Source: Hyposmocoma kahamanoa
Lineage: Eukaryota; Arthropoda; Insecta; Lepidoptera; Cosmopterigidae
NCBI RefSeq assembly: GCF_003589595.1
Contig: NW_020653337.1
Span: forward strand, 5,106,799-5,170,798
DNA: 64,000 nt
Direction of reading: 5' to 3'
In this document: positions 7,490 to 63,830 of the stretch, piece by piece
Layout: each line of letters starts with the position of its first letter
How positions within the stretch are numbered: the first letter of the stretch is position 1
Translations under genes and position numbers: made by a program
The notes under the pieces: generated by a model
Told to the model about the DNA's origin: nothing
Database searches by the model: none
What the model saw: only the letters and a program-made list of their open reading frames with translations

Positions 7490-8160
7490 ATTTTCTGTGA
7501 AATTACTCCACTGTAGCACCGGCACGCTATGATGGCCGTTTTGACGTTTCTCCGCTCATCAAGATTCGTATTAATTCATAACTACGTTGAAGGAGCGAAT
7601 TGATGTACGTTGTTGTTAATAGTGACGTGCATTAAAATTTATGGATGTATTATTTTATGACACAACGCGGCATTTGTTTTGCGAAATTCGATTTTTTTTT
7701 AAATGAAATCTAATACGATCGTCACTTATAGGATCGCTGACCAGCACAACTTCTACCTCCGGCAAACTCGCGTCAAAGCTCAATGCAAAACAAAACAGTT
7801 TCGATTTGACGATACCTATACTAAGTAAACATTTTAATTTTCGTTTTATTAAAACTTTCTAATAGCTACCCGTGCAATACTAGTTATAAAAGTAAAAACT
7901 TATGGATGCGACTCTCATTTGATTATATTTTTTTCGATAATGAATTGAGATTTAACTTCAAACTTCACTATTGTAATCTGTCGAAACGGCCATCATAGCG
8001 TGCCGATAATGTAGTTTATCATAAATATTAATACAATTTAATAAAATTTCTCCGCTACGGCCGGCTTCGAACTGACGTCTTCAAACCGTGCCAGACTCTA
8101 TGCCAACTAAGCCACGGAACGAACAGTCAGGTCAAAAATGTTAATAATAAGTAAGCGTGT
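7490..8160 (-). mobile_element. SINE-D copy, interrupted by MITE-E
   Basis: The right part (8035-8130) is a minus-strand tRNA-like head: its reverse complement has A-box-like 'tggcttagttgg' and B-box-like 'ggttcgaa' segments. The left part is the SINE-D tail 'gtgaaattactccact', resuming after 8011 as 'gtagtttatcataaatat'. MITE-E splits the tail. Other SINE-D copies are at 28155, 29893 and 63590. Confidence 0.65.
7514..8011. mobile_element. MITE-E, Tc1/mariner-like, TA target
   Basis: Inverted ends 'caccggcacgctatgatgg' and 'ccatcatagcgtgccg' extend about 28 bp. The interrupted SINE-D tail reads CTCCACTAGTTT in the uninterrupted copy, which places the insertion at a TA; the left TA now reads TG. 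No transposase frame. A second copy lies at 44686-45181 in the opposite internal orientation. Confidence 0.7.
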
Positions 8161-9058: not shown

Positions 9059-10898
9059 TTAAACTCTCGCCTCTCCTAAGGCCTAAAAGATTAATTTTGA
9101 ATTTTTAAATGGGAGAGGCGGTATTTCCCGGCAATGGCACAGTCGGCCGGGGTCAGGGACTCAGGTCCAAGAATCGGCGAACAATACGTGCCGTATCGAG
9201 CAGGACCGCCTTCTGCATTTGTGCTGGAAGCGACACGCCACAGAAATCCAACCGCCTCAAGCTGTTAGAAAGGCTGACTGGAATTAACCCATTTGCGGAC
9301 AAAACAATTGGGATTATTTCAGTGGAGGCCACATCCCACATGTCGGTGATCTCGTGCGCCAGGTCGAGATACTTCCGGCGTTTCTCGGTTTCAGCTTTCA
9401 CGAGACCCTCGTCATGCGGGATGGTGACGTCCACAAGAAATACCCTCGACTGCGATCGATCCAATATCACAATATCAGGCTTATTCGCAAGAATAGTCCT
9501 GTCCGTGATAATAGATCGATCCCAATAGATTTTGGTGCGGTCATCTTCGAGTATTGGCTCCGGTGAATACTTGTAATATGGCAACCTCTGTTGCACTAGT
9601 CCGTACTTGAGAGCGAGCTCTTGGTGTAATATTTTGGCTGCCTGGTTGTGTCTGTGCAAGTACTCAGTGTTAGCAAGAGCGGAACAACCGGAAACAATAT
9701 GCCTAAGTGACTCTCCGGGACGGCCACATGCCCGACAAATGTCTACTGTGCCGTCCTTTAGGATATATTTCCGATAGTTCCTCGTCTTGATAACCTGATC
9801 CTGTATTGCACAGACAAAACCTTCGGTTTCCCCAAAGAGGTCCCCGAAACGCAGCCAATGTAGGGAGGCTTTACGATCCATAAAAGGCTCGTGGAGTACC
9901 TTGAAGAACCTCCTATGGAGCTCCTTCTCTTTCCATACGGACTCGCGGTCAGAGGTGCTAAGCACCACCGGGTCTCGCCATTCCTCTTTGGCCAACGATA
10001 AGGGAGTTAGCCCTTTATCACATGTGACAACCTCTCCACGAATCACGTCATCCGTCATCGTCAAAAAGTAGTTTCTGAGACTGCATATCTCGCGGTTGTG
10101 CATGGTTTTGACACTTAATAGGCCTCTACCTCCACACTTCCGCGGGACATACAATCTCATAACTGACGATCTCGGATGATGCATTCGGTGAGAGGTCATC
10201 GTCGTGCGGACTCGTCTATCCAGAGCGTCTAATTCCGTCTGAGTCCATTTGAGCACGCCAAATGTGTACATCAGAACAGGCATGACCCAGGAGTTATAAG
10301 CTCGGATCTTATTAACGCCTGACAAATAGCTGTTTAGCACATTTTTCAGGCGCCCATAAAAAACCTCGCACACACCCTGTTTCACGTCTGCTTCCTTCAC
10401 ACCGATGGTCTGCGACATGCCCAAATACCGGTATGTTTCAGTCTCGGAGAGTACCCGCAGGTGATTGGTGCCAATATTAATGCCATCAGAATGCATGACA
10501 CGTCCCTTCTCAACATGGACCACCGCGCACTTATCGATCCCAAGCTCCATCCTAACCGAACTGCTGAAATCGTTGGTGATTGTCAGCAGCTCCGTCAATC
10601 TGTCAGCTGTGGGGCCGTATAGCTTGAGATCATCCATGTAGAGAAGGTGAGGCATTCGCGGTCCACCTCTCCGAAACTGAAAGCCTGTGCCCGACCTCTC
10701 CAATAGAGTACTCAGAGGGTTCAGGGCCAGGCAAAACCACAGTGGACTCAGACAGTCACCCTGGAAAATACCTCGCCTTATTTCTATTCGGTCATCCGCA
10801 TCCGTCATCCGCCGACCGTCCAGACTCAGGATCGTTCTCCAACATCCCATGCATTGCCCGAGGAAGTGTCGAACTGCACTGTCAATTTTATACAGTGC
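9059..10898 (-). mobile_element. R4/Dong-like non-LTR retrotransposon, 5'-truncated
   Basis: Minus-strand element carrying a long intact frame plus about 95 bp of 3'UTR. Both ends abut TTA/TAA trinucleotide runs (9041-9058 and 10899-10911). Dong-type elements of the R4 clade are known to insert into TAA repeats, and this fits that target choice. The 5' truncation lies within the reverse-transcriptase domain. The open frame across the remainder suggests a young insertion. The exact target duplication cannot be defined inside a simple repeat. Confidence 0.8.
9153..10898 (-). CDS. partial R4-type retrotransposon polyprotein (RT plus restriction-like endonuclease)
   Basis: Counting from the first in-frame Met (10850) there are 565 residues; the frame is open for about 16 more codons into the TAA run, so that Met is internal and the true N-terminus is lost. 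Visible domains: the RT motif GDCLSPLWFCLALNPLS near residues 31-47, the catalytic YMDD at 71-74, and TYRYLG near 139-144. A CCHC zinc motif uses C372, C375, H384 and C389. A restriction-like endonuclease signature has P458-D459 and D474 (KPDIVILD then VFLVDVTIPHD). This RT, zinc and endonuclease order is that of R2/R4/CRE-group elements, which nick the target and prime reverse transcription there. The missing RT fingers mean it cannot encode an active enzyme. No internal stop is present. Family placement in R4/Dong rests on motifs and target, not on a tree. Confidence 0.85.
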   Translation of the reverse strand, partial: ALYKIDSAVRHFLGQCMGCWRTILSLDGRRMTDADDRIEIRRGIFQGDCLSPLWFCLALNPLSTLLERSGTGFQFRRGGPRMPHLLYMDDLKLYGPTADRLTELLTITNDFSSSVRMELGIDKCAVVHVEKGRVMHSDGINIGTNHLRVLSETETYRYLGMSQTIGVKEADVKQGVCEVFYGRLKNVLNSYLSGVNKIRAYNSWVMPVLMYTFGVLKWTQTELDALDRRVRTTMTSHRMHHPRSSVMRLYVPRKCGGRGLLSVKTMHNREICSLRNYFLTMTDDVIRGEVVTCDKGLTPLSLAKEEWRDPVVLSTSDRESVWKEKELHRRFFKVLHEPFMDRKASLHWLRFGDLFGETEGFVCAIQDQVIKTRNYRKYILKDGTVDICRACGRPGESLRHIVSGCSALANTEYLHRHNQAAKILHQELALKYGLVQQRLPYYKYSPEPILEDDRTKIYWDRSIITDRTILANKPDIVILDRSQSRVFLVDVTIPHDEGLVKAETEKRRKYLDLAHEITDMWDVASTEIIPIVLSANGLIPVSLSNSLRRLDFCGVSLPAQMQKAVLLDTARIVRRFLDLSP

Positions 10899-10944
10899 TA
10901 TTATTATTATTAAATGTGACCAATACTGAGATACCCTCTATACA

Positions 10945-12378: not shown

Positions 12379-12738
12379 AACCTATCACAAACTCGAATTT
12401 CCTTTTTCCGAATTTCATTACTCTGAAAACGGTTCGACTTTTTTTCATTAGTGCGATGACAGTTTTGGTATAAATTTGCAACACAGAAGTGTCTTACAAC
12501 AGAAGTATCGTTTGTCCGAAAACCTTTTAGTAGAATAATTATTACACATACGTATTCTTTGGACAGAAGTTTGTTTGGTCTAATCAAGTTTGTTATGCTG
12601 TCTGTTTTTCATATAATTTAGATTGCTGAAAATTCGTTTCGACAAAATCATTATTCTTAGATAAAATTACACCGCCATACAAGATAAAATTGTACCGCCA
12701 TACAATAATAATATATTTAAAATTATAATAATAAAATA
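12379..12738. other. AT-rich spacer with a 23-bp duplicated phrase
   Basis: No gene seen. 'agataaaattacaccgccat' and 'agataaaattgtaccgccat' lie in tandem at about 12658-12705, immediately before the satellite array. Confidence 0.5.
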
Positions 12739-13110
12739 GCGGCCGGCGAGTGTCAGAGCCGAATTTGTTTGCATTACCCAGACGGTACGACCCCCTCCTG
12801 TAGGTTTAGGTTAGGTTAGTATATGAAAATACCGCACGAGCCGAGCGAGCCTAGCGAGCGTGTCGCGGCAGCGGCCGGCGAGTGCCAGAACCGAATTTGT
12901 TTGCATTACCTAAACGGTACGACCCCCTCCTGTAGGTTTAGGTTAGGTTAATATATGAAAATGCCGTACGAGCCGAGCGTGTCGCGGCAGCGGCCGGCGA
13001 GTGCCAGAGCCGAATTTATATGCATTACCTAGACGGTACGACCCCCTCCTGTAGGTTTAGTATATGAAAAACCAGCACGATCCGAGCGAGCGAAGCGAGC
13101 GGCTACAACT
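12739..13110. repeat. rep-F tandem array, three GC-rich units with TTAGG motifs
   Basis: Units start at 12739, 12871 and 12990, each beginning 'gcggccggcgagtg'; periods 132 and 119 bp. Each contains 'gaccccctcctgtaggttta'. Units 1 and 2 continue with 'ggttaggtta', that is short TTAGG runs, the usual insect telomere motif. Each ends in 'gagcgag' short repeats. Two diverged rep-F units occur inside the array element at 43592-43735. An inverted repeat around 13105-13185 closes the region. Confidence 0.75.
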
Positions 13111-28154: not shown

Positions 28155-28425
28155 TATTATTAATACAAAGATCGAACACTCAGAAAAAACACTCAGAAAA
28201 AATTACTTCGATCCGGTCGGATGCGAACCGACGTCTTCTTGCATACCGTGCCAGACGCTATACCAACTAAGCCACGGAACGAACCAACGGACCTCACGAA
28301 TTTCTCTATGTGCTTGCGTCGTGTCTTTGTACTTGGTCTTTCAACGACTTTTTAGTCGTAGCGCCATCTATGACAAAACTATTACAGATTTATCACCCAG
28401 TTAGTACCTTTACAGCTACCAGTCC
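28155..28425 (-). mobile_element. SINE-D, near full length
   Basis: The reverse complement begins with 'atagatggcgctacgactaa', has tRNA-like A-box 'tggcttagttgg' and B-box-like 'ggttcgcatccg', and ends 'gttcgatctttgtattaata'. Copies at 29893-30440 and 63590-63830 align through the same order. Confidence 0.75.
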
Positions 28426-29892: not shown

Positions 29893-30440
29893 TAAATTTT
29901 TATTGAATTGATATTCAATTATTTTTTGTGAAATTACTCCACTAGTTTCATTGACTTACAAATAAATTGACGACGGGTCTAATACAAAAACCACGAAAAA
30001 AATGTCCCAAGTCAACCTATTCGAAATTTAAATTATACTGTCATCGCAGTATCGCGCTGTCAGTAGAACAAATGAAGACTAAAGCGGAGTTTGGCGCTCT
30101 GTATACGATTTTAGAGCCTTACAAGTGCGGACACTTTTTAGCGCGGACCCGACGTCCATATAATTGTAAGTCAATGACTAGTTTGTCATATTTATTAATA
30201 CAAAGATCGAACACTCAGAAAGAATTCGTTCTATCCGGCCCAATTCGAATCGACGTCTTCTAGCTTACCGTGCCAGACGCTATACCAACTAAGCCACGGA
30301 ACGAACCAGCGGACCTCACGAAGTTTTCTATGTGCATGCGTCGTATCTTTGTATTTGGTTTTTTCAACGACTTTTTAGTCGTAGCGCCATCTATGAGAAA
30401 TCTATGAAAGTTTTATCACCCAGTTAGATATCTTTACAGT
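29893..30440 (-). mobile_element. SINE-D with tail, interrupted by MITE-C
   Basis: The tail 'gtgaaattactccactagtt' (29929-29948) resumes after the MITE as 'gtcatatttattaatacaaa', followed by the minus-strand tRNA-like body (30228-30310) and 'cgactttttagtcgtagcgc'. The SINE is therefore older than the MITE. Confidence 0.75.
29949..30176 (+). mobile_element. MITE-C copy with 8-bp target duplication
   Basis: Ends 'cattgacttacaaataaatt' and 'taattgtaagtcaatg'. The flanking duplication ACTAGTTT at 29941-29948 and 30177-30184 is perfect. Length 228 bp; similar throughout to 38396-38626. Confidence 0.9.
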
Positions 30441-34224: not shown

Positions 34225-34350
34225 AACTCGATCCGTAGCTTAGTTAGTAAAGCAATGGGGACGGAATCCCGTGGTCGCAGTTTCGAGTCCTGTTGGGTTG
34301 ATGAATTTTTTCTATGTTTTCGATCTTTGTATTTAATAATTATAACAAGC
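34225..34350 (+). mobile_element. SINE-D2, tRNA-headed
   Basis: 'gatccgtagcttagttagta' gives an A-box-like start, 'cagtttcgagtcctgt' a B-box-like segment, and the end 'gatctttgtatttaataatt' is shared with SINE-D. Not a functional tRNA: acceptor ends do not pair well. Confidence 0.6.
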
Positions 34351-35995: not shown

Positions 35996-36762
35996 GGTGC
36001 CTACAGATTTGCTCGATCTTGTCGATCGTTTCTGTCGATCAGGTGCCTACAGATATGCTCGATTTTGTCGATCGTTACTGTTGATCGACAACGTCAAGTG
36101 ACAGGAATTTTCAAAAATTTATTTTTGGTAATCCTTATGGAAATGGCATTTATATCTGAATACACGAAGGCGGACACGACTTTTCTCATTTCTAAATCCA
36201 AGATGGCGGACACGTCTTTTCAAATAAATGCAATATGGGAATCGTTTCGAGGAATTCGAGGTGCTCATCACGAATATGGCATTTATTTCTAAGTCCAAGA
36301 TGGCGGACACGACTTTTGAAATAAATGCAATATGGGTATCATTTTCGAGGTATTTGGGGGTGCTCATTACGAATATGGCACTCATTTCTAAATCCAAGAT
36401 GTCGGGCACGATTTTTCATATAATGGCAAGTTGAGGATCGTTTTCGAGGTATTTGGGGGTGCTCATTAGAAATATAGCACTTATTTCTAAATCCAAGATG
36501 GCGGGCACGATTTTTCGAATAATGGCAAATTGGGTGTCGGTTTCAAGGTATTAGGGGCTGCTCATTCGGAATATAGCACATATTTCTAAATCCAAGATGG
36601 CAAAGAGTTTGGTTTACCAAAAATACATTTTTGAAAATTGTTGTCAACCACTAGAAATTAATGCTACATTCGTAATAAGCACTCTAAAACTCCTCGAAAA
36701 CGTCTAAAATTCTCAATCGTTACTGTCGATCGACAATGTCGAGCAAATCTGTAGGCACCTTA
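35996..36762. mobile_element. inverted-repeat element enclosing a minisatellite
   Basis: Left 'aggtgcctacagatttgctc' (repeated at 36041) and right 'gagcaaatctgtaggcacct' are inverted ends; GTCGATCG palindromic words follow on both sides. Sub-terminal inverted pieces 'tttttggta' also pair. The interior is a tandem array. No transposase. The target duplication is unresolved. Confidence 0.75.
36150..36605. repeat. 99-bp minisatellite, about 4.5 units
   Basis: 'tccaagatgg' recurs at 36198, 36294, 36393, 36492 and 36591 (spacings 96, 99, 99, 99). Each unit includes 'aatatggcatttatttctaa' and 'cgaggtatttgggggtgctc'. Open frames on both strands across it come from the repeat. Confidence 0.9.
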
Positions 36763-43190: not shown

Positions 43191-43304
43191 ATAATCACCA
43201 AATCTCAATTTCGAAAAGAAACTACACTACCACAGTTGTCTGACTTAGTACGTAACAAAATATTATTGTCTAACAATTGCTCCCGTGAGTTGGGTGCGAT
43301 TCGT

Positions 43305-44140
43305 AATATATAACAACAAATGACATATTTTAAGTCGATATAACGCACAACAGATATAATTAATTTATGGTATACAGACATTTGACATATTCTTGCATGA
43401 TATAAAGGTCACTGGGTACAATAGACGATTGATATAACAACTTTCAGTGTAATATACCGATGGCATAATGTTCATTTTATATAAACACTTCAGATATAAT
43501 ATTCAGTGAGTATAATGTTGAATGTGTATGTGTGAAAAAAAATTAATATAATTCCAGTGGTGTTTAGGTGCAACGGTGAATAAACGGAATTTGTTTGCAT
43601 TTGCTAGTTGCTTCGACCTCCTCCTGTGGATTTAGGTTTGGTAGTACATGACAAAGCTGCCAGAATCAAATTTGTTTACATTTGCTAGTAGGTTTGACCT
43701 CCTAGTGGGTTTAGGTTAGGTTAGTATATGCAATTAAATATTCTGCTTAAAGTTTTAATAAATATATTTTATAACACAAAAAGCACTTACAGCTATACAA
43801 AAACAATTATATTTTGCTATTGTGCATTTAATGGAATAAAAAAATTCTTATCAACATAATGTAGAGCGCTTCAAATATTCGTAAAACTAAATATTATGTT
43901 ATATTATTTAATACATTATACTGGTAGTACTTATACTATTTGTTCATTATGTCACCTAATCATTATATCTAATGTTTATTATACTGATGGTTTATTATAC
44001 ACATTGAAATTATGTCTTTTGTTGTTATACCTTTTGTTGATTATATACAGTGAGTGATTATATCCTTAGAAAATATATCAAATGTTTTATACCAAGTGAA
44101 AATAGATTATTTGTTTTTATATCTTCCATTACATATCGAG
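43305..44140. repeat. paired inverted arrays of GATATAAT-N8, 16-bp pitch
   Basis: The left arm (about 43305-43530) repeats GATATAAY-like 8-mers at about 43337, 43353, 43370, 43384, 43399, 43416, 43431, 43450, 43463, 43479, 43493 and 43510. The right arm (about 43890-44100) repeats the reverse complement ATTATATC/ATTATACT at 43915, 43930, 43946, 43962, 43978, 43994, 44009, 44024, 44040 and 44057. Spacers of about 8 nt are almost unconserved. Between the arms are two diverged rep-F units (43592-43735) with a TTAGGTTAGG motif and AT-rich DNA. No reading frame fits this. Unclassified; possibly a transposon with many sub-terminal protein-binding sites. Confidence 0.75.
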
Positions 44141-44685
44141 TGTATTCAGCTAAGTAAACTTCCGTGGGTTATAACAAATGTATGCTTGGCTAAATTACAA
44201 TCCATGGTTCAAAAAGTCATATTGTCGGGTATAGTGAAAGGCCGAGTATGTAGCATTGGTAAAAGGCGCTTATCTATATGAAACCAAATTTTACAGGGGA
44301 GGGTTTTAACGTTATTGTTATTATTTGGTTATTTCAAAGGATACGACTTCCATATTTGCACAGTAAGCATTAATTTATATTGCCCGTTAACATTTTATAA
44401 TTTTAATCATACAATGTATTTATTATCGTTCGTTAATTATTTAATATGTTTATTAACAATAATTGTGCAGATAATGACTACAGTTGTTGATTTGAAGAAG
44501 TCATGAGTATAGATAGGACTTAATAGTCGTGTGATGTGAAATGTTAACGTTTAGGAACCTAATTATACAGCCTGTTTATTATTGCTCATTAATTACAATT
44601 ATACATCTCGTTAAGTAGGTATATTATTATGTTTATTACTATAAGTTAATTTAACTATGGTTTTAAAGTACACATGTTTAGTCTA
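44141..44685. other. AT-rich intergenic
   Basis: No gene recognised. Weak TTATTA-type words continue but no longer in register. Confidence 0.4.
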
Positions 44686-45181
44686 CAGTACCGGCACGCT
44701 ATGATGGTAGTTTGGCAGATTAAAATAGTGAGGTCAAATGTCAATTCATTATCGAAAAAAAATATAATCAAATGCGAGTCGCATCTATAAGTTTTCAGAT
44801 TTATTACTAGTAATGCCCTTGCAGTAGCTGATTAACAAGTTTTAATAAAACGAAAATAAAAATATTTACTTAATAATATATCGTCAATTCGAAACTGCTT
44901 TGTTTTGCGCTGAGATATACCGCGAGTTTGCCGGAGACAGAAGTTGTGCTGGACAGCGATCCTATAAGTGACGATAGTACAAGATTTCATTATCAAAAAT
45001 TTCGAATTTCGATAAACAAATGCCGAGTTGTGTCGTAAAATGATACATCCATAAATTTTACTGCACCTCACTATTGACAACAATGTACATCAATTAGCTC
45101 CTTCATCGTAGTTATGAATTAATACGAAACTTGATGAGCGGACAAACTTCATGAGGGCCATCATAACGTACCGGTACTTTT
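44686..45181 (-). mobile_element. MITE-E second copy
   Basis: 'cagtaccggcacgctatgat' at the left and 'ccatcataacgtaccggtac' at the right, with TA at the left boundary (44684-44685) and near the right boundary (45182-45183). The interior matches 7514-8011 in reverse ('atgcgagtcgcat', 'cgagtttgccgg', 'cagcgatcctataagtgacg'). 45182-45621 beyond it holds nothing recognised. Confidence 0.75.
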
Positions 45182-50766: not shown

Positions 50767-52055
50767 TGAGAAATTGAAAACATAATGTGTTAGAACTACT
50801 TTGGCTCAAAGGACTTATTCCACGCTAAAACTCTTAATAAAAAGAATCGTAATTCATATCTATTGTCTTAGTTTTCTTTTGGCTCAAAGTTAAGGGTAAC
50901 TGCTTTGAGCTGCCTACCCCTAAGCAGTGTTACAGCAAAGATAATGAAACTATTTAGTCATCAGTTGATGATTTCTCCATCCCAGTCAGCCGTGACCAAC
51001 GGACTTGTAAGGGGCCCGGTACGTTAGTTTGTTTGAAAAAACAAACATACGCGATTTAGATGCGAAAAAATTGTTCCATTTCCTATGTGTAACAATTGCG
51101 AAAACCTGAGAACTCGATAAGCAAAGGTAATGAATATCGTTTCAAATCTTTCTTTTTCTGCAATTTTTTCGCTATTCACAAATAGAATGAATTGTTAACA
51201 CTAAATAAAGTTTCATGGTCTACCATGAGTTCTAGCCTCCGCCTACTCAGAGACCTTTTATTAGAATATTTTTATGAAACTTTTAGGGATTGTCGTTAAT
51301 ATTTAAGAAAGTATGGGAAAAATATTGAAAAAAATATTTGTTCAAAAAACCGAATTTTCACTATGTCCTATATGTAGGACGACGGCACTATATTAAGTGT
51401 CCATTTAAATTTTGAACGGTTGTAAGTGGACTAATTAGCAATTAAGTTAAAGCAATACTTGAATAAAATATTATTTATTGAATATAAAAAAACACAAAAT
51501 ATACCTATTAAATATAAAATTAAAAAACGAATAAAAAATAAATATATCTTCTGAATAAACAAGATATTACTTCTATCATTTAGACGTTATTACTATTAAA
51601 ATCTAATTTACAATTTTTTTTAAATTGTAAAATAGGAATGAACGTAAGAGATTAACATAAACATATGTATTCTAACTTTCAGCCTCGTGAAATTCGATGA
51701 AACAGTTTCTATTTGGCACAAAACTCAGACAAATCTCAGATTTTTTACAGTTTTTCTTATTATAACCAATTTTTTGCAGCGCGACTGTTTTAAACTGTTA
51801 TGCCTTTAAGTCCCTTATAGTCAATCCGAGAGACCTTCCATTTTAAAAATTTGTGTGCTATTTGTACAGTCAACAAAAAGAATATCGTCATTAATATACC
51901 TACTGCTGGTAGAGTCTATACCATGCCCATTCCGTAGTATCTATCGGTAAATAGGCGGGTTGCAAACACTAAATTCTGGCTCAAACTTGTGTTTCGACCA
52001 ATTATCTTGCTTATCATTAGCGTTCTGGCAACTGAGGACCTGTGATCGGAGTGAA
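50767..52055. other. AT-rich intergenic, no gene seen
   Basis: 51022-51083 is an inverted copy of part of the 45622-46658 element ('gtttgaaaaaacaaacatac', 'ttgttccatttcc'). Otherwise nothing recognised. Confidence 0.4.
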
Positions 52056-53733: not shown

Positions 53734-53813
53734 CTTACATTACAGAACCAACCTTCAAGCATAGCGTTACATTAAAGTAGTAAAAAATTTCAAAGTTTTT
53801 AGTGCTCCTAGTA

Positions 53814-56800
53814 ATGTTCAGAAAATTCATATTTCTACCCATAATATTCAATTTAGTATCTATTGTTCTAGTTTCAACTACATCGGGCATATTTGCAACC
53901 CGACGTATAATTTTTAATATAAGTGAAACTGAGCACATTTTTCAAAGCTATCTAGAAACCTATAATAAAACCTACAAGAGTACAGATGAATACAAAAAGC
54001 GCTTAGAAATATTCCGAGCAAATTTGGAAGATGTGAACAAATTGAACACTGGTGAAGGTACTGATGTGTATGGAGTTACGGAATACAGTGACATGACTAT
54101 CGAAGAATTTATATATAAATCTGGTGTGGCGGGAGTCTCTGAACCTGAAATGGATACTTTTACTGTAAATTTTACGTATAAGACAAGTGTAAGGTCTATA
54201 CCTGATTCTTGGGATTGGTCAAAATTAGGGAAAGTATCAGCAGTTGGAAATCAGGGCTCTTGTAGATCTTGTTGGGCATATAGTGCCACGGGTGAGTGGG
54301 ACTTCATATAAATTTACATTACAAAAAAAAGCAAATGCTCATTTTTCTTTATTTTTGTAACAAGGCTTTTAACACTGTACTAAAAGGTGGATCAAGTCAG
54401 TTAATTTACAGTAATCGCAGAGGGGTAAGGCGTTGACATAAATGATATAAGGCTATCAAGTGTTAAAATTTATTTAGTGGAACGTGACTAGATTTAAGAG
54501 ATTCCCTATAGAGACCCACACCATTAAACCAAGGCTTTCGAAGAAGCTGTGGTTGCATCGTCCTGTACCAAATGCCTCTTGCTAGTGAAATTTCCTCCCA
54601 GAGAAATAAGTTCAGTAGCAGTTGCTTTACAAATTATGCTCACGCCATCAGATATAGCATCGTTAGCAAGTTTATCCTCGTCCTCGTTATCCAATATACG
54701 TGTAATGGAATCCATAATGACGGTTTAATTTTTAATACTTAAATCGTGTATCAGCATTTTTTATTAGTTTACCTTTACTTCTCAAATTACATTTAACCAA
54801 GTGTACTTATACTGTGTACTGCTATTTTACTACTTAATAGGTATACACATCTTCCATCTTTAGGAACAATCGTTTTCGAATGGCGAATTCGGGCTGAGCA
54901 ACGATCTGTCTTCCGTTGCTTTTGATTGAAGGCGGAGTGACGGCGCGGTTCAGTATTTGTTAAAGGATCGATGGCTATGCCAAATATAGGTACTTAATAA
55001 AATTCGTTTGAGCAAGATATTTTGATACATTATAGGTATGAAAATGTCTTCGGAGAGAATCTCTACAAATGAATACAAACTAATATAAAGACGTTGTTCC
55101 AAATGTTATATAGTTAATTTCCCTGTGCAAGAGTTACAGTGGCCAGTTCAATGTTGGTGGATGTATAAAACTTTAAAATGTGCTTTCTATTTCTAGGCGT
55201 AATGGAAGGACAATACGCTATTAAATACAAAAAACTAGTAACCCTTTCAACTCAACAGTTGATTGACTGTATGCATCAAGGAAAAGGGTGCTTGGACAGC
55301 ATGACATTTCCCCACATTGCAATTAAGTTAGTATGACAACTCAACAACAATTTTTGTTTTACATGTCACAGTAAAGCAAAAATTGTTGTTGATTCGACTA
55401 TGACATAAGTTTCTCTGCAAAGATTGTTATTTAAGGTAACTGTTTTATTGTAGCCCAAATATGGCACGTTCATTTGAAGGTTGTTCTATTTTTTCGGTGA
55501 CTTACAAGTTACCATGTTGATGATCTTCCAAGGTCTCGATTTCGTGAATTGAAACTAGCATTAAAATGATAACGTAGTACAATAAGACAAGTATGGTAAC
55601 TCTATTCACACTCAGCAGTGCGTTTTATGTGCACGGCCGTCGCACGCCGTTTGCGGATGCACACATTCGCATAATAATGAAAGCCGCGTTAGGACGAATA
55701 GTATGTTCACTACAAACCTCTTGGTTATACGAGAAGGGCACTATAACTTGTGCAAACAAGCCCGCAAAGGGACCTACTCATCTAGCAGCAGAAGAGCTCC
55801 TTGTGAAAGTGCTCGCTCAGGGAAGTACTGCCACTTTACCTATTTCTGACGCCAAGCGGTAATGTGAGCATTACTGCGTTCCGGTTTTGAAGAGTAGGGT
55901 GCTGGTGAAATTACGGGCACATGGGATTTGCCAACTTTTATCACAGGGTGAATTAATTAATGATATTTATTTGCTTCAAATATGGTTTACAACAGGTGGT
56001 ACAAGTATACTTAAAACAGTACTCATATTTTACCGTATGAGCAGTGGCAGTGCACCTCAAATCTTTGCGATTAAAGCTGTTAGTGGCATTTTTAACTGTG
56101 CAACTGTTAAAGACAGGCGTGTAACTTACCATCTGGCGCACGACTTGTTCGTCCCGTTCCTTGATATTATAAAAAAGAAGTCAGGTCAGGTCACCCCAGA
56201 TCACCTTTTTTTTACCATGCTCGGTATGGAAATCTGCTGTGATTTGAATCCAAGGAGCTACATCGAATCTGTGATCAAAACAGCCTCACGGAAACTCGGA
56301 GTCCTGAACAAGGTGCGACGTTTTTTCACGCCGGACCAGTTATGCCTGCTGTACAAAACACAGGTCCGGTCTTGCGTTGAGTATTGTTCGCACTTGTGGG
56401 ACGGCTCCGCCAAGTACCTACTCGATGCCTTGGATAAATTACAGCGTCGTGCTACTCGAATTATAGGCGACAAAGAGGTCTCATCACGCCTTGAACCTCT
56501 GCAACTGCGTAGAGATGTTGCATCGCTTAGCGCCTTTTACCGCATGTACCATGGTGAGTGCTCTGAAGAGCTGTTCAACCTCATCCCCCCTTCCCCGTTC
56601 CTGCTCAGAAGCACGCGTGCTGGCCTTCGTAGTCACCGTTTCACTACCTGCCGCATTCCATCGCGTACTGAAAGGTTCGGTGGCTCCTTCCTCTGCCGCA
56701 CGGTTGACAAATGGAACTCCCTTCCGGCACATGTCTTCCCTCCCTCTTATAATATGGGGTCCTTCAAACGAGGCGTGAAGAGGCATATTGTAGGCAGGCA

Positions 56801-58835
56801 GGGTGGAGGTGGCTAGTGCAGTGAGGGTTCCATCGCTGCACTAGGTTCCTTCGCGTTTGGATACCACTTTCCACTTAACATCAGGTGGAGTGGAGTCATT
56901 TGCCTGTCATGTATAAAAAAAAAAAAAGATCAACCCGTTTGCACGGACTTCATCCAGTTCTCGAAAGGCTAGAGCCATGGGTGAGCAGCCCCAGTTCCAC
57001 GCACAGTACCCTCCCTATTTTCCAGGTAGGCAACGGAGCTGTAGACACGCTCTCTTCTCATAACGGTTGCCACCGCTAAGCCATTGACTCTAAAGTCCAT
57101 TACTAAATCTCCTCTTCGGTGGCGGAGCTGTAAGCCACGCTTACTCCCCGAAGCGTCTCTCCAGTTCCTAATAACCTCAGTGGCTGGAGGGACTGGAGGA
57201 TAACTAGCTCATCTACGAAGTGTGATGCAACGTGAGTACAGCGCATGTGTGCTTCAATACATGACACGCGGCGGGAGCTTGATACCATATTTTTCTTATT
57301 GAACTATGATGATAAATTCTGTAAAATTAAGTTTTTTATTGCATAGTCATTTCAGTAATTTGTTGATGTGCTTGTTTTCAGTTCAGCAGCAAAGAAAGGA
57401 GGTATTATGCCAGATTCTGAATACCGCTACCTGGGTTTCCAGACAGCTTGTCGTTTCGATGTAACAAGGGCAGTTGCAAGGATTAAAAATGCTCTTAGAT
57501 ATGTCGTCACCGGTGAAGAGCAACTGCGAGAATTGGTATACAGTTATGGACCAGTAGCAGCAGGTATTACTGTGAAATTATTGAAATTAGTAATTCTAAA
57601 AATTTTATTCATTATTGTTCGTTTTCTATTTAACGAAAATTTGGTGGACATAAAATTGGTGGTATCTAATAACAAGTTATTATGCAAGTTGATTTTTTTT
57701 ACGTTACCAACTGACGCGACATACAAGTCCTTCAAAACGTTCAAGTTTGAACGTTTTTAAGTGCTAACTGACTGAATTGAAATTTTTTTGTCACAAGCGG
57801 CATAGAGTTAACGTTACTGCAATTTAACTATTCAACTTTATAAGTTTGCAAATTTTTTTCGTACAGGATTTTTAATTAGCAGTGGTTTCCCGAAATACAG
57901 AAGAGGGATTGCAACGGCTGAAAATTTTCAGTGTAACGTTAGAAGATTACTAAATCATTCCGTGCTTATTGTTGGATTTGGGACTGGTAAGACTAGTATG
58001 AATTACACAATGTGTATCTATCATTCGTCATGCTCCTTCCCTTAAACTATAATTTGAGATCGATACAGTATTTTGTCGTCTTCTTTACCATCTCTATCAC
58101 TTCAACTCGTCGTTGGCTCCTTGAATTTATTTTTACCCTTAATGATTTTTTTAAATTGAAATTTGATGACCTAGGTGGCTTAACGGTTAACATTGTGGGC
58201 GCTGGATGCGGAGGTCCTGGGTTCGATTCTCATAAGAACCAATTTGGGAAAATCAACTTTTCTAAATTGGTTTTGGTTAGGGTGATCTAGGAAGTGTCCA
58301 AGAGTGAATTCCGTTGTTCTGGTACTCATAGTACAAGAATTTCCCTAGTTTGAGACTACGTCATTTACATTATAATGCCAGCTACTAGGCTTGAGCTAGT
58401 GTCAGTTTCGATGCCTGTTAATTCTGTTGATATTGTGAAATATTTATTAATGGCTATTACTGTTAAAGTAAGTAATTTAAAAAGAGATAAGTTTGTAGAT
58501 TTGAAAATAGATTTCAAATAGTAAAAATAGTGTCAGAACTTTCAATATTTCATTCGGTTTTTTCTGTATTCCTATTTGTACAAAAGTTTTGGGCAGCATA
58601 AGTAAATAACGCAATAATATTAACATTTTGAATAAGCTCATTTGCAATTTACTTTTCGGAGCTTTTATTACTACCCATAATTATGTGTGTGTTTTATTTA
58701 GCTGAAGGGGTCCCCTATTGGATAATCAAGAATAGTCATGGTGCCCATTGGGGAGAACAGGGCTACTTCAGACTAAAGAGAGGAGACAACCCCTGCAATC
58801 TAATGGACTATATTGCCACTGTTTATCTGTTGTGA
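53814..58835 (+). CDS. cathepsin-L-like cysteine protease, five exons
   Basis: Exons 53814-54291, 55197-55326, 57382-57563, 57867-57986 and 58702-58835; every intron is GT-AG, the phases match, and the sum is 1044 nt (347 residues). Papain-family (C1A) preproprotease acting in lysosomes or outside the cell. Residues 1-25 form a hydrophobic signal peptide. An I29 propeptide carries an ERFNIN-type set (E59, R63, F67, N70, V74, N78). The mature enzyme starts near IPDSWDW. Oxyanion-hole Q147, nucleophile C153 ([13 protein letters not shown]), H294 (LNHSVLIVG) and N314 complete the catalytic set. Odd points: the usual Gly before SCW is Arg (R151), and the Trp after catalytic Asn-Ser is His (KNSHG, H316). 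Length is normal for the family. I chose ATG 53814, since the frame upstream has no ATG. Introns contain SINE-H, rep-A and a LINE. Full intactness argues for a functional gene. Confidence 0.9.
54524..54715 (-). other. antisense 63-codon frame in protease intron 1, uncertain
   Basis: Encodes [20 protein letters not shown] and continues to a stop. The composition is more protein-like than the surrounding AT-rich frames. It could be a fragment of a processed pseudogene or an unrelated nested exon. No domain recognised and no poly(A) or splice context seen. Confidence 0.25.
55727..55785 (+). repeat. rep-K fragment in intron 2
   Basis: 'agggcactataacttgtgca' then 'acaagcccgcaaagggacct' matches the rep-K core. 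It abuts the rep-A copy. Confidence 0.55.
55783..56172 (-). repeat. rep-A in intron 2, interrupted
   Basis: Reverse-complement landmarks from 'agcagaagagctccttgtga' to 'cgcacgacttgttcgtcccg', with about 85 bp of foreign AT-rich DNA at 55950-56035. Confidence 0.75.
56180..56930 (+). mobile_element. Jockey/CR1-like LINE, 5'-truncated, in intron 2
   Basis: An open frame to 56816 (about 210 LINE residues) encodes the C-terminal part of a reverse-transcriptase [68 protein letters not shown] and [13 protein letters not shown]. The 3'UTR includes 'acttaacatcaggtggagtg' and ends in a 13-base poly(A) (56915-56927). RT palm motifs are absent. The open frame suggests a fairly recent insertion, in the sense direction of the host gene. 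Clade from motif memory only. Confidence 0.8.
56931..57290. other. GC-richer unclassified intron sequence
   Basis: Follows the LINE poly(A). Phrases such as 'gtgatgcaacgtgagtacag' and 'aacggttgccaccgctaagc' suggest another decayed repeat, which I cannot name. Confidence 0.35.
58168..58350 (+). mobile_element. SINE-H in protease intron 4
   Basis: Head 'gacctaggtggcttaacggt' (A-box-like) and 'ctgggttcgattctc' (B-box), then 'aatcaacttttctaaattgg' and 'gggtgatctaggaagtgtcc', matching 41855-42050. Confidence 0.75.
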
Positions 58836-63589: not shown

Positions 63590-63830
63590 AAGACATAGAT
63601 TTCACACAGATGATGCTACGATAAAAAAGTCGTTAAAAACCAAGAGCAAAGATGTGCAACAATCACATTGGAAAAATCGTAAGGTCCGTACATCCGTCAG
63701 TACATTCCGTGGCTTAGTCTTCATAGCGTCTGGCACGCTACTTTGCTGGAAGACGTTGGTTCGAATCCAACCGGATCGAAGAAAGTTTTTTCTTAGTGTT
63801 CGATCTTGGTATTAATAGTTACCAAGATCG
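63590..63830 (+). mobile_element. SINE-D, plus orientation
   Basis: 'cgataaaaaagtcgttaaaa' start, tRNA-like head 'ttccgtggcttagtcttcat' with B-box 'ggttcgaatccaacc', and tail 'gttcgatcttggtattaata'. The open frame across it is not a gene. Confidence 0.75.

Follow-up and report, generated by a model that had tools for sequence, protein, structure and literature searches.

The 64-kb stretch of Hyposmocoma kahamanoa DNA analysed here (the window) carries, at positions 43292–44161, two arrays of AT-rich short words that are oppositely oriented and flank a core of ~340 bp. The features of this interval and of its borders are listed below; the 14 and 15 octamer sites of the two arms are those of a motif and spacing chain whose motif was seeded with five GATATAA sites.

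43283..43291, no strand: candidate target-site duplication, left copy CCGTGAGTT, a 9-mer with one mismatch to 44162–44170
43292..43306, plus strand: candidate left tip GGGTGCGATTCGTAA, outside the first octamer; its position follows from the candidate duplication
43301..43521, plus strand: left arm, 14 units of WCANNNGRTATAAT (motif and spacing chain)
Octamer starts in the left arm, plus strand: 43307, 43322, 43337, 43353, 43369, 43384, 43399, 43415, 43431, 43446, 43462, 43478, 43493, 43509
43560..43896, no strand: core between the arms, without a long open reading frame (ORF)
43583..43736, plus strand: two "rep-F" units, the second with TTTAGGTTAGGTTAG, common to tandem units within 12738–13101
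43893..44129, minus strand: right arm, 15 reverse-oriented units (motif and spacing chain)
Octamer starts in the right arm, minus strand: 44123, 44108, 44093, 44079, 44064, 44047, 44031, 44016, 44001, 43985, 43969, 43953, 43937, 43922, 43905
44130..44151, minus strand: right subterminal stretch with a possible degenerate extra unit, GATATGTAAT (44137–44128, minus strand), seen by eye outside the fitted chain
44152..44161, minus strand: candidate right tip AAGTTTACTT, palindromic over 10 bp except for the unpaired bases 5 and 6
44162..44170, no strand: candidate target-site duplication, right copy CCGTGGGTT, with one mismatch to the left copy

The paired inverted octamer arrays lie far beyond chance. 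When both arms were re-fitted together with a 19-column motif and spacing chain started from random seeds (40 for the observed arms, 25 per control), 13 and 13 units were recovered at a score of 218.6. Pairs of dinucleotide-shuffled arms (n = 584) gave a mean of 44 (sd 6, maximum 70.2), and 335 placements of the same geometry elsewhere in the window a mean of 49 (sd 10, maximum 88.6). The inverted pair of arrays described in the first-pass annotation is thus borne out, as are its twelve or more octamers per arm, direct on the left and reverse-complemented on the right; its distance of about 400 bp between the arms is corrected to 381 bp between the innermost fitted octamers. The consensuses of the two arms fitted separately both hold GATATAAT with T before it. 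One extra octamer with a single mismatch, at 43545, lies past an A run and off the left-arm register.

An octamer-free test was also applied, in which the longest chain of any single octamer was sought with at most 2 mismatches and steps of 14–17. The left arm gave a chain of 7 and the right arm a chain of 10, lengths reached by none of 500 dinucleotide shuffles per arm (maximum 6 for both). With the window divided into 256-bp blocks, an AT-rich segment at 51466–51562 (around AAAAATAA) also reached 7, so by this crude measure the left arm, taken singly, has an equal in the window; the right arm's chain of 10 was equalled by no block among those listed. In the motif and spacing scan the rest of the 64 kb contained no second array above the listing threshold, and under laxer chain settings the next-best chain in the window had 3 units. 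A laxer motif scan for continuation of the right array into 44175–44640 gave isolated weak matches only.

The repeat unit is WCANNNGRTATAAT, in which a W and a C, 6 and 5 nt upstream of the octamer, are conserved in both arms. The spacer is therefore not free, and its earlier description as nearly unconserved is only partly right. Pairwise identity across 15 columns ranges from 0.26 to 1.00, with the top values within TATAA and elevated values at the upstream W and C, and the conservation profiles of the left and right arms are correlated at r = 0.93. This pattern bears on the possibility that the locus is a neutrally decayed minisatellite, once inverted, in which slippage, reverse copying and drift would have acted with no protein involved. 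Such a history is consistent with the tandem, head-to-tail arrangement of the units, with a mean identity between left and right units of 8.4/15, and with the chance-level phase evenness described below. Against it stands the uneven column conservation, repeated in both arms: the observed column variance was 0.055, compared with 0.029 or less when uniform decay was simulated 5000 times on a simple star model. The units compared were aligned by the motif itself, and a history common to them could exaggerate the contrast. Within that simple simulation, a tandem array losing its columns evenly by neutral decay is ruled out, and we regard a decayed minisatellite as an improbable account of the locus.

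Steps between octamers run from 14 to 17 with a mean of 15.56 (27 intervals, both arms), so the range first reported holds while the pitch is 15.6 bp and not mostly 16. The estimates for the two arms are 15.563 (se 0.027, left) and 15.589 (se 0.059, right). Two thirds of these values is 10.38–10.39 bp, which places neighbouring units ~1.5 helical turns apart, in agreement with the first-pass annotation. Plain base-to-base autocorrelation peaks at lags of 47–48 and not at 16. By itself the pitch is no proof of selection, because random reordering of the same spacings gives phases that are just as even (p = 0.18 and 0.71); phase-keeping beyond unit length is unsupported. The pitch, which the first-pass annotation took to look selected, thus does not call for selection of its own. 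Left-arm neighbouring units are less alike than expected from chance order (99.7% of permutations as high) and right-arm units at lag 3 are slightly more alike (4.2%); with 14 tests altogether, such higher-order patterns are too weak to claim.

Comparison of the arms with each other gave a best ungapped 43-bp match between the outermost units, 43305 with 44125 (32/43 over 49,259 position pairs). A rival register pairing 43309 with 44029 matches at 31/43, which leaves the outermost one only a slight lead. The gapped arm-to-arm score was 122, compared with a maximum of 86 in 500 shuffles, although the shared unit alone would raise this score. Colinearity of unit order between the arms was not significant (p = 0.24). 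A gapped match of 46 for the flanks with the three outer units fell below the top shuffle score of 51 (n = 500), sequence flanking the arrays showed no inverted similarity (19 versus a shuffle mean of 25), and no perfect terminal inverted repeats were found beyond the arrays.

Candidate limits are provided by CCGTGAGTT and CCGTGGGTT, which are suggestive of a 9-bp target duplication surrounding an element at 43292–44161; the duplications typical of MULEs (Mutator-like elements) measure 8–11 bp. Of 400 control placements, 4% yielded a 9-mer pair as good (one mismatch or none, five or more G+C). The two copies form part of a longer direct repeat that brackets the candidate element (CTCCCGTGAGTT at 43280–43291 and CTTCCGTGGGTT at 44159–44170), and 12-mers with at most 2 mismatches and at least 6 G+C occurred in 1.75% of control placements. 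A competing AT-rich 9-mer, TAACAATTG/TAACAAATG at 43271–43279 and 44172–44180, also has one mismatch and would set the limits at 43280–44171. Exact 8-bp matches between the flanks exist as well; they are AT-rich and fall within array units or next to them, and on average ~2.8 near matches of this length are expected per grid. Exact 7–8-bp repeats near 43309–43323 and 44170–44180 were not taken as duplications, being AT-rich and leaving unlike tips. An 8-bp or TTAA duplication next to matching short tips would be expected of hAT, piggyBac or P elements; the tips were judged unlike by eye for the listed exact flank repeats of 7–10 bp.

At the right candidate limit, AAGTTTACTT is the sole 4-2-4 palindrome starting in 43230–43320 or 44100–44200 (the rate in the window is 0.0079 per position), and it ends exactly where the right copy of the candidate duplication starts. 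The candidate left tip, GGGTGCGATT, is not palindromic and does not resemble the right one; the first three bases are GGG on the left and AAG on the right. Slightly inside, CGATTCGTAAT (43297–43307) and CGATATGTAAT (the reverse complement of 44128–44138) match at 9/11 positions. Since the palindrome and the duplication were noticed post hoc, after the published descriptions of the elements Muta1 and Tm1 (see below), they are leads and not proof.

Neither the core nor the candidate element as a whole contains a stop-to-stop ORF of at least 110 aa, and Pfam identified no transposase among the 9 ORFs scanned of the 23 listed for the window. The two rep-F units and the TTAGGTTAGG motif previously placed between the arms were located at 43583–43736, with 76–80% identity to the tandem units within 12738–13101. 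The latter interval consists of three tandem rep-F units of ~125–130 bp, two of which carry TTTAGGTTAGGTTA as in the core, with G+C-rich linkers of the AGCGAGC type. No octamer array was found around these units in the array motif scan, and searches for the rep-F pattern elsewhere returned 0 stretches in genome contigs (23-mer) and 0 in viral contigs (19-mer). Self-complementarity of the core was not notable (62 versus a shuffle mean of 51 and maximum of 86), and, folded as a single DNA strand, the candidate element gave a modest result (z = -2.18, with 1 of 20 shuffles as good).

The window is rich in dispersed repeats. A reverse-transcriptase fragment at 9153–10937 (minus strand, P0015) matches a protein of Hyposmocoma kahamanoa at 98% identity across 57% of the query, and 24 of the 26 organism-named rows in the first 35 of at least 541 reverse-transcriptase matches are from moths or butterflies, which marks the window as lepidopteran, from Hyposmocoma or a close neighbour; a 66%-identical relative of P0015 is filed as Listeria welshimeri, perhaps insect DNA in a bacterial assembly. 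A dispersed repeat of ~500 bp, which starts ~510 bp beyond the element's right candidate limit, occurs at 44683–45178 and, in opposite orientation, at 7515–8014 (84% identity). A 99-bp tandem repeat with 4.2 copies and 86% matches is found at 36188–36601. Three tRNA-family matches lie at 28208–28281, 34229–34301 and 63703–63779, the first within a repeat that recurs at 30192–30439 and 63595–63817, possibly tRNA-derived SINEs. At 53784–54311 and 57359–57760 lie stretches that resemble exons of a cathepsin-type cysteine protease (I29 propeptide, Peptidase_C1). Dispersed copies with ends like those of the arrays were found nowhere else in the 64-kb window.

In viral contigs a relaxed three-site pattern matched 62 loci, 4 of which (553,081 bases scanned) have chains of 4–8 units. 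Two of the four were viewed, L018 and L012, and were rejected as relatives. They are near-exact 15-bp tandem repeats with no mirrored partner in 401 and 301 bases, and the likeness is therefore taken as chance. The 15-bp repeats at L018 2220–2400 and L012 580–670 contain GATATAATT or GATATAACT and adjoin tandem repeats with CTACATTGTGGTA.

Foldback elements are recognised by long inverted ends built from short tandem repeats, and the locus has arms of this kind, with 14 units opposed to 15. Our preferred explanation, held at slightly better than even confidence, is that the locus is an old, decayed and non-autonomous Foldback-type DNA transposon, most likely a Mutator-like element (MULE), of ~870 bp with candidate limits at 43292–44161. 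We infer that the arms form the termini of a mobile unit, which moved in the past. The inverted arrays far beyond chance, the uneven columns alike in both arms, the candidate 9-bp duplication at the expected place and the palindrome at the right candidate limit count in favour of this explanation, the last two as leads. A transposon reading is the best supported because published Mutator-type Foldback elements of insects and nematodes share its anatomy (PMC5225508, PMC3169594), and to this extent the first-pass proposal, a transposon carrying numerous transposase sites near its ends, is upheld, mobility being the inferred part.

The closest published descriptions come from Aedes aegypti (PMC5225508, available to us in excerpt). 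There, the 145-bp terminal inverted repeat (TIR) of Muta1 comprises a 10-bp imperfect palindrome, with bases 5–6 unpaired, and nine 12-bp repeats with 3–4-bp spacers, which amounts to a pitch of 15–16 bp; Muta5 has nine 15-bp repeats, and short subterminal tandem repeats are described in 10 of 12 long-TIR MULE families. Muta1 produces 8–9-bp target-site duplications and has more than 300 putative non-autonomous derivatives, mostly with variable interiors. As in these excerpted accounts, the Hyposmocoma locus has inverted ends of short head-to-tail repeats at steps comparable to the 15–16 bp of Muta1 and the 15 bp of Muta5, and a 10-bp tip palindrome with bases 5–6 unpaired as in Muta1, here at the right candidate limit only. 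In contrast to the nine repeats of Muta1 and Muta5, each arm here has 14–15 units, which are strongly diverged, and the candidate duplication is imperfect; the comparison is one of descriptions, not of unit sequences.

Tm1 of root-knot nematodes, a Mutator/Foldback (Phantom-like) element, is described in the available part of its report as having units of 13–15 bp, unequal arms, asymmetric 7-bp tips and a 9-bp target-site duplication, together with an inner purine-rich motif and a non-coding copy of 1080 bp (PMC3169594). By that description our locus resembles Tm1 in TIRs made mostly of short tandem units, in unequal arm lengths and, at its candidate limits, in short asymmetric tips that lie outside the inverted part and in a candidate 9-bp duplication. 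Likeness of the unit to the Tm1 unit CGATTCAGTATCCGC does not exceed chance, as 36% of shuffled units score as high. In the portions available of their sources, the elements of a coral MITE and of a Rehavkus/MULE survey were no closer match. By analogy, the locus is likely a further member of an element type already described; among the matches listed (titles and abstract openings, a partial coverage of the literature) no paper concerns this particular element.

Several observations stand against the preferred explanation. No transposase gene was seen in the window (9 of its 23 listed ORFs scanned) and, over its 64 kb, no second copy; a second register is nearly equal (31 versus 32 of 43) and the order of units is not colinear (p = 0.24); the copies of the candidate duplication differ at one base, repeats as good turn up in 4% of controls, and an AT-rich 9-mer rivals them; and the candidate tips are dissimilar. 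A MULE survey, whose listing of 88 lepidopteran species in Table 1 speaks in favour of the assignment, reports, in the text available, that the first three tip bases of most arthropod MULEs are G/C-rich (PMC13359780), a rule that the left GGG fits and the right AAG does not.

Alternatively, the locus could be a transposon with Foldback structure or subterminal repeats from a different superfamily (P/Galileo, with THAP sites; hAT, with BED sites; CACTA; or piggyBac), which would employ a different transposase in a like manner; we consider this unlikely, though the strongest of the alternatives. Foldback structure has evolved repeatedly, according to the available parts of two reports (PMC4079207, PMC3169594), and exact 8-bp flank matches are present. 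Galileo, a P-superfamily element of Drosophila, bears multiple THAP sites in its long, repetitive TIRs, and the excerpts of its report describe binding of the THAP domain in these ends by footprinting and EMSA (PMC3688188), which supports reading such end repeats as binding sites under the preferred explanation too. The same excerpts record that the THAP site is missing from two of four repeats, and their authors term tandem repeats of Foldback and Phantom elements as binding sites untested. The ends of the hAT element Hermes carry 17 and 14 putative BED sites in an account whose authors, in the part available, consider extra transposase binding within the ends unlikely (PMC10368747), and the subterminal regions of Buster1, also hAT, have short tandem repeats (PMC4298943). 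Galileo and the Drosophila Foldback element Tetris share with our locus long, internally repetitive inverted ends. However, the sites of Galileo lie at about 70, 561–577 and 701–718 bp, the second and third 140 bp apart as compared with 15–16 bp here (PMC3688188), and the units of Tetris are ~220 bp long (PMC4079207). Within the texts available, a regular pitch is described for Muta1 and Muta5 (15–16 or 15 bp) and for Tm1 (13–15 bp) and not for Galileo or Hermes, and the exact 8-bp flank repeats are weakened as duplications by the AT-richness, position, unlike tips and chance expectation given above.

A regulatory array, bound by a chromatin, replication or anti-silencing protein encoded by the host or by an element, is in our view very unlikely. 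Its model is VANC21, which binds an AT-rich 9-mer (YAGTATTAY) densely arrayed in one orientation in Arabidopsis VANDAL21; these short-word arrays, grown by tandem duplication within a transposon, resemble those here (PMC5735166, in excerpt). Three VANC21 9-mers beat most of their own shuffles on the array motif, a weak result (3.7–5.5% as good). Unlike the present arrays, those of VANDAL21 are placed by the same excerpts in introns and upstream regions, not mirrored at two ends, and their function is loss of DNA methylation and not end recognition; moreover, the 64-kb window has a single array locus.

If the locus is a Foldback-type MULE, its inverted ends, which consist mainly of arrays of WCANNNGRTATAAT at 15.6-bp pitch, may be read as follows. 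A transposase, presumably of Mutator type and supplied in trans by an autonomous relative elsewhere, would bind each unit through its DNA-binding domain. Many weak sites in series could confer specificity and cooperative loading. With a separation of 1.5 turns, bound subunits next to each other would occupy opposite sides of the helix, and alternate ones the same side. Ends loaded in this way might then pair, allowing excision and an insertion that would leave an 8–9-bp target duplication, with the core carried as a passenger.

A further proposal, which we regard as doubtful, is that the ~15.6-bp pitch is itself a functional rule: transposase would form a filament or zipper on alternate faces and so pair the ends, and the pitch would have been reached with unrelated units. 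The values compared are 15–16, 15 and 13–15 bp for published Foldback-type MULE ends and 15.6 bp here.

Taken together, these comparisons give an array pattern that looks very unusual a published counterpart. The locus would add a strongly decayed lepidopteran example, in which the core of the unit and the pitch are still visible while the remainder has drifted, and the recurrence of a pitch near 15 bp across MULEs makes the proposed reading of such array ends directly testable.
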